36,495 nt of DNA from Candidatus Thermoflexus sinensis (lineage in GTDB: Bacteria > Chloroflexota > Anaerolineae > Thermoflexales > Thermoflexaceae), in contig JAEVEY010000180.1 of NCBI GenBank assembly GCA_016842045.1, positions 1 to 36,495 on the forward strand. Direction: 5' to 3'. Shown in pieces: positions 8,004 to 15,967 of the stretch (its first letter is position 1; each line of letters starts with the position of its first letter). Position numbers and translations under genes: made by a program. A model generated the notes under the pieces. That model was not told the DNA's origin and searched no databases. It saw only the letters and a program-made list of their open reading frames with translations.

Positions 8004-9044
8004 TCAAGCGCGAACCCTGATCCAGGCGGTCCGCAGCATCCACCCGAGAACCCCGATCCCGATCAGCAGGGCTCCAACGAACATCGCGAAACTTCCCCAT
8101 TCCCCCCGCACCGGGATTTTCCCCAGATCCACCCATGGTCCGAGCTCGGTGGCCTGAACGACCTGGCGGGCGATGGCGTTGCTCACGAGCACTCCGCCCT
8201 GGAGAATCGTCAGGATGATCGCCGTCGCCGGGCGGGGTCGGGCCCGATACAGCCATGCAGCGGCCCAGGCGATCGGCACGCTGGCTCCAGTTAGAAGCTG
8301 CAGGATCCGGGGCAAGCGATCGGCCACTGTCGGGGCATACAGGCTCCCCGCGATCCCGAAGATCCCCAGGCCGATGGTGAACAGGATGGGGACGAGCGGA
8401 CGGGCTTCTTCCTGAAGCCGCGAATCCCCCTGGCGGATCTCCGTGAGCAATGCCAGGAAGGCGCCCACCGTTCCGAAGGCCATCCCGGCCATCAGCCCGA
8501 GGCGGAGGAGCGCTTCCCGTTCCAGATAGAGGGTCCACCCGTGAACCCCCCCGGCGGGAGCTGCGCTTCGAAAGAGCGTCGGCCAGTGGTCCGGCCGAGC
8601 GGTAAGGGTCATGGCCGCCGAGAACTGGAACCCAATCCACGTCAGAAGGATGGCAGCGGCCAGGCTGGCAAGGATCCGCCAGCGCCCGAAGGCGGCCAGG
8701 TAAACCGCGGTGTAGGCGATGAGGAGGAGGGGGATGACCAGGAACCAGAACCAGGCCTGCAGGATGGTAGCTGGATAGAAAAACTGGGGATAAAGGGTTT
8801 GCAGGAAAAGGAGGGGGACGATCCCGGCGTTGATCCCAAAGGCCATGGCGAAGGGCATCGCTGCGATCAGGCGTTCCGATACGTGGGGTCGGGTCCGCGC
8901 GAGGATCACCGCCACCGGCAGGCCGGCGAGCCACAGGTTCATGAACACCATGTGCAGGAAAAAGCCGAAGACTTTCAGAGCGAACAGATAGCCAATGGGG
9001 ATCGGCATCCCCAGCGGATCCGGTTTCGGGATCGGCGGCATCAT
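8004..9044 (-). CDS. Multi-helix membrane protein, partner of bd-like oxidase subunit
   Basis: This 346-residue integral membrane protein has about eight to nine hydrophobic helices. Its ATG overlaps the TGA of the upstream cytochrome gene (9041-9044), and AAAGGAGGG lies within that gene's 3' end, so the two are translationally coupled. The N-terminal helix has H31 in FFLHMVFMNLW. A segment around residues 80-115 (YPQFFYPATILQAWFWFLVIP) resembles helices of bd-oxidase-like subunits. I do not recognise a clear CydB signature. From position and topology it is inferred to be the second subunit of a bd-type terminal oxidase or a related quinol/cytochrome c oxidoreductase. It could also be an unrelated membrane anchor. 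No soluble domain is visible. Confidence 0.65.
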   Translation of the reverse strand: MMPPIPKPDPLGMPIPIGYLFALKVFGFFLHMVFMNLWLAGLPVAVILARTRPHVSERLIAAMPFAMAFGINAGIVPLLFLQTLYPQFFYPATILQAWFWFLVIPLLLIAYTAVYLAAFGRWRILASLAAAILLTWIGFQFSAAMTLTARPDHWPTLFRSAAPAGGVHGWTLYLEREALLRLGLMAGMAFGTVGAFLALLTEIRQGDSRLQEEARPLVPILFTIGLGIFGIAGSLYAPTVADRLPRILQLLTGASVPIAWAAAWLYRARPRPATAIILTILQGGVLVSNAIARQVVQATELGPWVDLGKIPVRGEWGSFAMFVGALLIGIGVLGWMLRTAWIRVRA

Positions 9045-10372
9045 CGCCCTCCTTTCTGCAGAGCGATCAGATAGGCAATCAGAGCCTCCCGCTCCGATTC
9101 ATTCCCCAGCCACGGCGGCATCGCCGGATTCGTCCGGTGCAGATGCCGGATCGCATCGGCGATCATCTCGGGGGTCCAGGGCTGGATCAGCGGCCGTATC
9201 CCATTGTAGCCGTCCAGCGCATGACAGGACGAACAGTGATAGACATAGAGCGCCTCGCCGACCTGAACCTTCTGGGTCTCCGGCAGGCGCGCGGGGTCCC
9301 GCAGCGCTTCCTCGGGCAACCCCAGATCCTCTCGCAGGTAGAGCTGGAGCCATGGGGAGCGGGCGATCAGGCCCTCCTGCTGGAGGAGGGCAGCCTCCGC
9401 CACCCGCACGCCCGGGGAGAAGATATAGCGCTCGATGCGGTAGGGCTTGCGGGCCCCCTCGCGGAGGAACTCCCCACTGGTAATGGCCACGATGCCGATG
9501 AGGAGCATCAGCAATGCTTCCGGCGGGTTGATCCAGCGTCCCCCGCGAAGATAACCCAGGCCGAAGGCGGTTAGGGCGACGAGCGTCGCCCCGAAGTTCA
9601 AGGTCGTCATGATCAGCAACAGCGGGGCGCGAAGGATGTTGAGACGGGCGTGGTCCGGCAGCACGGCGAAATATCCGATCCCTCCGATCAGGATGAGGAG
9701 CATCCCGACGATGGCCCAGCGCGAGACGCGGGGAACCAGTTCGTCCCGCAGGGCTTCAGGGGACCGGAAGGAAAGATGCACACCGATCCAGAGGGCGGCG
9801 ATGGCCAGCGAGCCGCCGGTCCGGATCAGCACCTGGGGCAGGAAAGAGGGGTTGAAGAAAGCCACAAAGAAATTCGCCTCGGGCGTCCAGCGCCCGGTGG
9901 TCAGCATGAAGGCCGTGATGCCGGTGATCAGCACCAGGCTGAGCCAGGCGGAGGCGGCATAGATCCAGCCCATCGCCATATGCTCCCGGGGCCGGAGGCG
10001 ATCCCAGAGGTAATAAAAGGCGAAGGCCGAGACGATCTCGATCACGAAGACCACCCACTCCGTGGCCCAGCCGAACACGAACACATGGATGAGGGCGCTG
10101 GTGCTCTCCGGCGAGGTCAGGCCGATCGTCCACCAGATCCCCACGCCGGTGAGAGCCCCGAAGACGATCGTCAGCAGCACGAAGAAGCGGGCCAGATCCC
10201 GGAGATAAGCCAGGACGTCTGACCGGCCGTTCCGGTAAGCCCAGGTCACACTGTCCGCCAGAAGGAACCCGCCTCCGACCGCGAACTGGGCCACAATGAC
10301 GTGGGGGATGGCGACCAGGGGGATCAACATGGGAGCCGTCAGGAAAGGGACCACCCACACGGGATATTCCAT
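9041..10372 (-). CDS. Cytochrome bd-like oxidase subunit I with C-terminal cytochrome c domain
   Basis: This 443-residue membrane protein has about eight to nine helices and then a soluble haem c domain. CydA-like traits are H24 in the first helix (AIPHVIVAQ), an acidic helix (VVFVIEIVSAF) and EFLREGARKPYR near residue 305, which resembles the ExGRQPW signature of cytochrome bd subunit I. The Q-loop is not evident. The C-terminal domain has CSSCH (C380, C383, H384) and a likely distal Met ligand, M418 (NPAMPPW). Cytochrome bd superfamily members with CydA-attached haem c are described in the literature as OR-C-type. Assignment to that group is an inference from these motifs. The ATG at 10372 is chosen because AGGAGG lies 5 bases upstream; a TTG at 10387 would lack one. 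It forms an operon with the downstream membrane protein. Confidence 0.8.
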   Translation of the reverse strand: MEYPVWVVPFLTAPMLIPLVAIPHVIVAQFAVGGGFLLADSVTWAYRNGRSDVLAYLRDLARFFVLLTIVFGALTGVGIWWTIGLTSPESTSALIHVFVFGWATEWVVFVIEIVSAFAFYYLWDRLRPREHMAMGWIYAASAWLSLVLITGITAFMLTTGRWTPEANFFVAFFNPSFLPQVLIRTGGSLAIAALWIGVHLSFRSPEALRDELVPRVSRWAIVGMLLILIGGIGYFAVLPDHARLNILRAPLLLIMTTLNFGATLVALTAFGLGYLRGGRWINPPEALLMLLIGIVAITSGEFLREGARKPYRIERYIFSPGVRVAEAALLQQEGLIARSPWLQLYLREDLGLPEEALRDPARLPETQKVQVGEALYVYHCSSCHALDGYNGIRPLIQPWTPEMIADAIRHLHRTNPAMPPWLGNESEREALIAYLIALQKGGR

Positions 10373-10387
10373 CGCGGCCTCCTGCAA

Positions 10388-10954
10388 TCGCGTGTAGAAT
10401 CCCGCTCACTCCGGGGAGGCGATTTCGGTCAAAGACGACTGAATGCCCCTTGCCCCATCGCGGTTTAAAGTGGCCCGGGGCAAGATTACATGGGCCCGCT
10501 GTCAACTTTCGCTGGGCCGCTTGAGGGTAAGCGGCCCAGCTTTCCTCATCATAGTCTGGACTTCCCGGGGGAGGTGGGGCCGTTGGCCTTCATGACCCAT
10601 ATCCTCAAAACAGAATGAGACGAAACGCCCATTTTGGACCTAACTGGTCCAGTTTAAGATTAAAGGCACAATGCCACCGTGAGTAGTCCCATTCCTCACC
10701 CAATATCTATGATGATGCTCATAACCAAGGGCTCCATAGGATCGCCCGGAACCCCTTGCAGGGCTTAAGGATATGCTGGGGGCGGCCCTCGCCCATCTCC
10801 CGAAACGACCCGTGGCCTGAAAGCCTGGATGGCTCCTCTTTTCCGATTTTCCGAAGTGCCAGGAGCGGCCCTGCTCGCCTCTCAAATACCCGGGTGGGGT
10901 TTCGGTGTGGCAAGCTATCAAGGGCAGCTCTATCACACCCTCCGTTAAAATAAT
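10388..10954. other. Gene-free stretch upstream of the oxidase operon
   Basis: No supported gene lies here. It should hold the promoter of the - strand oxidase operon, but no box pair at normal spacing convinced me. One perfect hairpin is present (10511-10540). The open frame on the - strand over 10640-11032 reads through the MITE hairpins and is not believed. The rest, including moderately AT-rich parts at 10600-10720, shows nothing recognisable. Confidence 0.5.
10511..10540 (+). terminator. Perfect 12-bp hairpin followed by TTTCC
   Basis: GCTGGGCCGCTT (10511-10522) pairs exactly with AAGCGGCCCAGC (10529-10540) around GAGGGT. On the + strand a short T-run follows, as in an intrinsic terminator, yet no + strand gene ends nearby. 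It may protect the region from antisense transcripts or be an isolated repeat. Confidence 0.4.
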
Positions 10955-10959
10955 CCGAT

Positions 10960-11136
10960 TAGGAGTTACGCAGTTGGTTTTCTCCTGGGGGTTTTGGGGG
11001 AATCGCGCGCCGAAGGCGCGCGATTCCCCCAAATTTATCCCCCCTCCCCACGGCCCAAAGGGCCGTGGGGAGGGGGGATAAAGGGGGGTGGGGCCATTCT
11101 ACCTCTTCTCGCGAGCCCCGAACTGCGTAACCCCTA
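10960..11136. mobile_element. 177-bp MITE-like element with TIRs and 5-bp target duplication
   Basis: The left end TAGGAGTTACGCAGTT (10960-10975) and right end AACTGCGTAACCCCTA (11121-11136) are inverted repeats with 15 of 16 matches. The element is flanked by CCGAT on both sides (10955-10959 and 11137-11141), consistent with a 5-bp target site duplication. Inside are a 16-bp perfect hairpin with GAA loop (10996-11030) and a 21-bp perfect hairpin with AAA loop (11036-11080). It carries no coding sequence, so it would need a transposase supplied elsewhere. It ends 56 bases before the methyltransferase start. The IS family of the parent is not determined. Confidence 0.8.
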
Positions 11137-11192
11137 CCGATATGGAAGGAATGGAGCGACCGATTCCTGTCAAATCATCGGAGGTTTTTCAC

Positions 11193-11927
11193 ATGGTGTC
11201 ACCGGAGAAGGCCGCACAGCGCGGGGTGCCCAGCCTGATCTGGGGCCCGGGGCAGGCCCGGCGCCTGGAGCTTATGCGACGGTTCGTTCGCCTGGAAGCC
11301 GCCCGCGTCCTGGTGGATGGATGCGGGATCGGGATGTATGTGGAAGCCATCCGGGCTTTCACTTCGGAGGTCCACGGCCTGGATATTGAGGAAGCATATC
11401 TCCGCGAGGCGCAGGCTCGGGGTCTCCGTCTCCTGGTGGCTGCCGCCGCCGAGGCCCTCCCTTATCCGGACAACACCTTCGATGTGGTGCTTTCCCATGA
11501 GGTAATCGAGCATGTGGCCGACGATCGCCGGGCGGTGGCCGAGATGGTCCGTGTGTTGCGGCCCGGCGGCCGCATCCTCCTGTTCTGTCCCAATCGCTGG
11601 TTCCCCTTCGAGACCCATGGGCATTACTGGCGGGGACGTTATCATTTCGGGAACACGCCGCTCATCAATTACCTGCCGGATCCTTTGCGCAACCGTCTGG
11701 CGCCTCATGTGCGGGCCTACAGCGGGCGCGCCCTCCGCCGTCTCTTCGCCGGCCTCCCTGTGCGCATCGTTTACCACACCCGGATTTTCCCCGCCTTCGA
11801 CCGGATCGCGCGCCGACACCCCCGGCTGGGGGGCCTTCTCCGTCGCGTGGCTGATCTTCTGGAACACACACCCCTGAACCGGCTGGGTCTTTCCCACTTT
11901 ATGGTAGTGGAAAAGACATCGTTATAG
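11193..11927 (+). CDS. SAM-dependent class I methyltransferase
   Basis: This is a 244-residue Rossmann-fold methyltransferase of the Methyltransf_11 type. Motif I is VLVDGCGIGMY (about 39-49), an acidic ribose-binding Asp lies in GLDIEEAYL, and the LPYPDNTFDVVLSHEVIEHV block (about 91-110) is followed by VRVLRPGGRILLFCPN. The C-terminal part is basic and aromatic. The acceptor is not evident; the family includes glycolipid, quinone and small-molecule methylators. The ATG at 11193 was chosen for the GGAGG about 8 bases upstream; in-frame ATGs at 11142 and 11151 have no such site. It sits between the MITE and a convergent membrane glycosyltransferase, so a role in surface glycan or lipid modification is possible but unproven. 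Confidence 0.85.
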   Translation: MVSPEKAAQRGVPSLIWGPGQARRLELMRRFVRLEAARVLVDGCGIGMYVEAIRAFTSEVHGLDIEEAYLREAQARGLRLLVAAAAEALPYPDNTFDVVLSHEVIEHVADDRRAVAEMVRVLRPGGRILLFCPNRWFPFETHGHYWRGRYHFGNTPLINYLPDPLRNRLAPHVRAYSGRALRRLFAGLPVRIVYHTRIFPAFDRIARRHPRLGGLLRRVADLLEHTPLNRLGLSHFMVVEKTSL

Positions 11928-15929: not shown

Positions 15930-15967
15930 CCACCTCTTCTTGCGGGCTCCGAACAGCGTGACTCCTA
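15930..15967. repeat. Solo right end of the MITE-like element
   Basis: These 38 bases match the right end of the 10960 element (11099-11136) at 31 of 38 positions, including a terminal repeat reading AACAGCGTGACTCCTA. Most differences are transitions. No convincing left end or target duplication is seen, so this looks like a decayed or truncated copy. It abuts the terminator hairpin after the response regulator. Confidence 0.65.

Follow-up and report, generated by a model that had tools for sequence, protein, structure and literature searches.

What is the 177-bp unit that stands between two genes of Candidatus Thermoflexus sinensis, how did it come to be there, and what makes its two hairpins perfect and keeps them so? 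The unit lies at positions 10960-11136 of the window, the stretch of 36,495 nucleotides that was analysed, with a methyltransferase gene on one side (11193-11927) and, on the other side and the opposite strand, a gene that encodes cytochrome bd and cytochrome c domains (9041-10387). We consider it a non-autonomous transposon with terminal inverted repeats (TIRs) that is probably moved by an unseen transposase making 5-6 bp target duplications, and whose hairpins would be made and kept perfect by template switching (probability about 0.78).

A MITE with two hairpins and its family

The element is a MITE, complete from end to end and flanked by a CCGAT duplication. Its features, in window coordinates, are the following:

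10955-10959, no strand: target site duplication, left copy CCGAT, from the sequence, the duplications of other copies and the empty site
10960-10975, forward strand: left TIR, from the sequence and end matches in the genome
10993-11033, no strand: hairpin 1, perfect 19-bp arms (10993-11011 and 11015-11033), loop GAA (11012-11014)
11034-11082, no strand: hairpin 2, perfect 23-bp arms (11034-11056 and 11060-11082), loop AAA (11057-11059)
11085-11097, forward strand: 13-bp core GGGGTGGGGCCAT, found also in MITE family E, counted with at most one mismatch
11121-11136, reverse strand: right TIR, from the sequence
11137-11141, no strand: target site duplication, right copy CCGAT, from the sequence

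The TIRs are inverted copies of 16 bp with one mismatch (10960-10975 against 11121-11136), and the two hairpins adjoin at 11033/11034. The preliminary description of this locus, made from the letters alone, had given the length of the unit, its ends and its CCGAT flanks just so. It had also recognised two perfect stems with AAA and GAA loops, correctly, but their arms measure 19 and 23 bp rather than the 16 and 21 bp that it had read. As single-stranded DNA, 10955-11141 folds with a z-score of -11.7, none of 200 shuffled sequences being equally stable. The statement that the unit holds no gene is right insofar as no member of a known coding family was seen inside 10960-11136 and its 26 Rfam matches at E ≤ 1 are all under the gathering scores; open frames nonetheless cover much of it (ORFs of 130 and 131 aa extend into the element, and the longest stop-free run inside it has 58 codons), as is expected of GC-rich DNA.

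The element belongs to a family with many dispersed copies. In its own genome (G000), TAGGRGTTACGCAGTT matches 229 times on the forward and 228 times on the reverse strand with up to two mismatches, that is 457 ends, against 1 and 0 matches (1 in total) for the reversed pattern used as control; a BLAST search with the whole element gave at least 97 matches with the best 40 of 518 candidates scored. A sample of 82 stretches of the genome (1,232,088 bases, or 1.23 of 3.44 Mb), picked mostly where ends were already known, contains 259 ends and 100 complete elements. Ninety-nine of the latter are 80-199 bp long (11 of 80-99 bp, 37 of 130-149 bp and 51 of 160-199 bp) and the last one falls in the 260s. 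Duplications of at least 4 bp flank 70 of the 100 copies, compared with 1.2% of mismatched flank pairs taken as control, and are most often 5 bp long (41 copies), followed by 6 bp (16), 7 bp (7), 4 bp (4), and 8 and 9 bp (one each); the other 30 copies, which lack a duplication of that size, count against our reading. The 66 copies with duplications of 5-9 bp display 64 distinct words, in line with the multiple copies and differing duplications that the preliminary description had proposed to look for with the 16-bp ends. AT amounts to 64% in the duplications against 36% in the sample, and to 67% over the 10 bases on each side of the copies, going down to 39% over 300. Several contigs of this genome end inside these elements (for example L071, L074, L083 and L101), and the hairpin repeats seem to limit its assembly.

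Across the class, 42 of 396 genomes have the same ends (control, 2 of 396), and 34 of these 42 are among the 387 that do not belong to the genus. In such genomes, too, the ends enclose short elements, and duplications of 4-7 bp were seen in 11 of 20 stretches; an element of this kind in G016 contains both hairpins. At the site studied here, the element is missing from a relative (G002), together with one of the two duplication copies: its flank goes from AATAATCC straight into TGCATGAAGG. Several bases of this empty site differ from the window (CCGATATGG), which counts against our reading. Since the relative has the site empty, the element was mobile recently enough to agree with the fairly recent movement that had been proposed for it, and what is missing there is the entire element with one duplication copy, not just part of the unit. 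Another insertion is visible in G005: a TnpB element there is interrupted by a 114-bp MITE that has the same ends and is flanked by CATCAT on either side, whereas the TnpB elements compared with it have this stretch unbroken and once.

The family, ends, duplications and empty site confirm the earlier MITE-like call: the element is a MITE, short, with TIRs, a target duplication and many dispersed copies. It is ordinary in kind. Like Correia, ERIC, Chunjie and QMITE, as presented in excerpts of PMC10969869, it is short, without coding family, and has TIRs and direct repeats; AT-rich sites, many copies, stable stem-loops and length variants are further likenesses. Unlike those MITEs, as the same excerpts portray them, it carries a GC-rich double-hairpin cassette that is optional within the family, recurs with other ends and inverts in place, and its autonomous partner was not found in the sampled 1.23 of 3.44 Mb. 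The exchangeable, flipping hairpins are what is unusual about it.

Inversion and mirrored changes of the hairpins

End signatures split the 100 copies into families A (53), B (41) and C (6). Both loop orientations are frequent in A and B: GAA in 18 and TTC in 12 copies for hairpin 1 of A, AAA in 10 and TTT in 16 for hairpin 2 of A, AAA and TTT in 11 each for hairpin 2 of B, and GAA in 5 and TTC in 3 for hairpin 3 of B. Nearest neighbours by backbone agree in loop orientation at rates of 0.54, 0.45 and 0.50, close to the 0.50, 0.51 and 0.47 of shuffled data, so that orientation shows no link with backbone kinship. Four same-site pairs between G000 and G002, with flanks 99.0-99.7% identical, allow a direct comparison; three are matched on both sides and one (L048/L082) on the left flank only, which weakens the case. 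Of the 8 hairpins in these pairs, 4 are inverted (3 of 6 in the two-sided ones), compared with differences at 3 of 312 end-proximal element bases (2 of 234 for the two-sided pairs). On inversion, the mismatches of these four hairpins drop from 3 to 0, 4 to 1, 4 to 1 and 6 to 1, and the mismatch count of the other four increases. In the pair L058/L089, the inverted segment takes its arm mismatches with it (6 before, 1 after). A fifth pair, L120 against contig ends in L101 and L231, was excluded because the G000 copy is split across two contigs, a further point to be set against our reading; read across the contig break, the loops of L120 look inverted as well. The same-site pairs are few and all hairpin data come from draft assemblies.

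These inversions might be artefacts of the short-read assembly of palindromes. Loop orientation in a perfect palindrome can be ambiguous to a k-mer assembler if k does not exceed the arm, and many contigs of G000 end within these elements. However, assemblers usually finish at a k longer than the 19-23 bp arms, and the L058/L089 inversion carries arm mismatches, leaving perfect outer arms of about 13 bp that are too short to mislead an assembler at k ≥ 21. Assembly error is an unlikely source of the inversions.

The arms themselves also change together. Hairpin 1 of family A was placeable in 47 of 53 copies, hairpin 2 of A in 42 of 53 and hairpin 2 of B in 29 of 41; they have, respectively, 8, 8 and 5 mirrored double changes (0.19, 0.22 and 0.08 expected) and 24, 30 and 13 one-sided arm changes. 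In total, 21 mirrored changes (about 0.5 expected) compare with 67 one-sided ones, in counts that include related copies repeatedly, so that the events are not independent. We infer that template switching is the best account of the in-place inversion and the mirrored changes, and favour it because it accounts jointly for these and for the perfect arms. A polymerase would switch to the opposite arm or strand during replication, and this switch might turn the hairpin round, move arm differences across and make matching changes in both arms; the hairpins would then be DNA palindromes made and kept perfect through replicative template switching. The larger number of one-sided changes stands against it, and cruciform processing or recombination between the arms could contribute part of the same effect. 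According to excerpts of PMC8794818, template switching creates and mends hairpin stems, makes reverse-complement copies and can invert loops. The hairpin template-switch mutations described there resemble those found here in that a single replication mechanism accounts for perfect stems, for compensatory changes of several bases and for inverted loops; they differ in that, for the rRNA genes covered by the excerpts, loop inversion is rare (69 loop-only cases), compared with 4 of 8 hairpins here at about 1% element divergence.

Alternatively, selection could keep the hairpins as terminators, mRNA stabilisers or nucleoid-protein sites, the mirrored changes being compensatory. Arms that are perfect in many copies and mirrored changes above chance would be expected under such selection. 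Yet no terminator-like site was found inside 10960-11136 (the two that were detected are both at 10618-10639, and shuffled sequences gave 1.4), no Rfam match attains its gathering score, the loops are inverted about half the time, 22 of 100 copies have no perfect hairpin at all, and the 67 one-sided changes exceed the 21 mirrored ones. We consider selection of this kind rather improbable, and a terminator function of the hairpins is unsupported. Compensatory changes are often read as proof of functional RNA. With well over 100 non-coding copies that display mirrored changes and frequent in-place inversion and no sign of an RNA role, the family could serve as a gauge of how frequently template switching by itself yields such signals and as a natural record of how hairpins form and change.

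Hairpins shared between MITE families

Hairpins are an optional part of these elements. Copies with 0, 1 and 2 perfect hairpins number 11, 23 and 19 in family A, 10, 27 and 4 in B, and 1, 2 and 3 in C. Two more MITE families, with other ends, occur in the same stretches. Family D (end TGGACTTTGGACAAAC) has 6-9 bp duplications in 8 of 13 copies (control, 1 of 156 at 5 bp), and in family E, 14 of 18 copies are bordered by TA at either end; this agrees with a TA duplication, although the TA could instead be part of the ends. A hairpin resembling hairpin 2 is found in 71 of the 100 copies of A/B/C, in 9 of the 13 of D and in 3 of the 18 of E, and the core GGGGTGGGGCCAT in 87 of 100, 0 of 13 and 16 of 18, respectively; E thus has the core and the hairpins of A/B/C, and D the hairpin type only. 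Because similar hairpins, in E together with the core, are present in MITEs with other ends, a hairpin cassette may have passed between the families, by recombination or template switching. Families with different duplications and similar hairpins pose the question of how a module crosses between transposons. More tentatively, the hairpin cassette might have a life of its own, spreading among MITE families that are moved by different transposases and turning over through replicative template switching so rapidly that every hairpin would be a near-random two-state switch among close relatives, an idea that we hold to be possible rather than probable; if true, base-pair covariation in such repeats would arise without RNA function.

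The preliminary description had regarded the hairpins as REP- or terminator-like modules being carried along. That they are carried modules is borne out by their number per copy (0-2) and their presence in other families; the likeness to terminators and to REPs is not. Independently mobile REP-like palindromes, inserted into several MITE families, would agree with the finding that MITEs with three kinds of ends carry similar hairpins and with the existence of hairpin-free backbones, and REP elements (PMC3733652) are, like these hairpins, short palindromes in many copies. But REPs are tagged with GTAG or CGTC, and the hairpins here are almost always tagless (GTAG near 1 of 104 hairpin feet, CGTC near 0 of 104) and lie inside TIR elements. 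The first 657 kb contain 164 hairpins whose arms measure at least 14 bp; 103 of them are within 200 bp of an A/B/C end, and of the 22 that were inspected among the other 61, many are inside MITEs with other ends. Such mobile palindromes are quite unlikely, and we prefer to see the hairpins as template-switch products carried by the MITEs.

The search for a transposase and the TnpB elements

As for the movement of the family, we infer that a transposase of the DDE type, which the cell has or once had, would recognise the 16-bp ends, cut and paste anything between them and make target duplications of 5-6 bp. Its cargo would include hairpin-free copies of 84-93 bp, copies with one or two hairpins and, in sister species, a TnpB gene; hairpins would then be unnecessary for movement. 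The absence of a located transposase in the 1.23 of 3.44 Mb of G000 that were read speaks against our explanation. In this sample, no pair of ends 320-4000 bp apart has a duplication of at least 5 bp, and no IS or transposase was found between such ends in the stretches and genomes examined. IS1634, which makes 5-6 bp duplications, is without a match in the 9 genomes searched for it. When the end patterns were relaxed in G004 and G005, MITEs and no transposase element came up, and the same holds for the stretches round ends in G269, G026, G023, G324, G303, G189 and G005. The open-licence PMC literature yielded no relevant paper on the end sequence and none linking Thermoflexus with MITEs.

Three candidate partners were rejected. 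C78, the sole PF01609 transposase of G000, is IS5-like, has different ends of its own and is inserted in a MITE copy; MITE sequence is visible on one side only of its element (about L132:2605-3690). A split ORF in L205, which by eye looks like an IS630 transposase, lies beside one end, with no right end found and no Pfam match for its 70-aa piece. An end pair round sugar-synthesis genes in L284 is a chance pair.

What lies between the same ends in sister species, flanked by 5-6 bp duplications, is a TnpB gene and not a transposase:

L133-L143 and L147 (G005), L154 and L159 (G001): TnpB-only elements with 16-bp TIRs, 5-6 bp duplications in most

G005, a genome in a single contig, has 12 copies of a 399-aa TnpB-family protein between paired ends about 1.3 kb apart, 9 of them with 5-6 bp duplications, one composite with TCTCT and two without duplication. 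The composite (L147:187-1835) consists of an internally deleted TnpB element and a full one, jointly flanked by TCTCT. G001 has two TnpBs, 50-51% identical, between such ends, with duplications CAGGA and TAGAT, and G008 has one between ends without duplication. The TnpB of the sister species scores 50.8 bits with PF07282 (cut-off 26.3), 47.1 with TIGR01766 (32) and 98.9 with NF040570, just short of the cut-off of 100; its dN/dS of 0.16 (11 of the 12 copies) indicates purifying selection. At E ≤ 1e-30, with up to 4 candidates per genome scored, this TnpB group is present in 6 genomes among the 396 of the class, and all six are Thermoflexus. Near the C terminus of TnpB, at the place of the third aspartate of RuvC (DRDxNAA), L135:252-1451 and A1 appear to have instead a motif resembling RH(E/V/A)(A/L)AAxNI, kept over 50% divergence.

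IS200/IS605 and IS607 elements are without TIRs and duplication, whereas the TnpB elements of G005 have both. TnpB-only bacterial elements are said, in excerpts of PMC3627910, to lack TIRs, unlike the Thermoflexus TnpB elements with their 16-bp TIRs and 5-6 bp duplications in common with MITEs. These resemble Fanzor-only TIR elements and TnpB-only IS1341-like elements (excerpts of PMC3627910 and PMC10711439) in having the TnpB or Fanzor gene alone between the ends, and no published bacterial TnpB with TIRs was found in open-licence PMC. That they are the autonomous parents of the family, TnpB acting as transposase on the TIRs, is highly improbable even though no protein other than TnpB was seen between these ends in G005 (12 copies) and TnpB is under purifying selection, because TnpB is dispensable for IS605-type transposition and support for TnpB-mediated transposition is missing (both according to excerpts of PMC3627910), because the genomes with most MITE ends, G000 and G002, have no intact TnpB match at E ≤ 1e-20 (one decayed and none, respectively), and because no such TnpB was found in the 34 of 387 outside-genus genomes with these ends (up to 4 candidates per genome scored). 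Most likely, one and the same unseen transposase moves the MITEs and the TnpB elements. The TIRs of the latter suggest that a system of the cut-and-paste type picked up TnpB in bacteria, as happened with Fanzor in eukaryotes.

Another end of the same family, decayed, TAGGAGTCACGCTGTT, lies further along the window at 15952-15967 on the reverse strand, followed by sequence that resembles the right part of family A.
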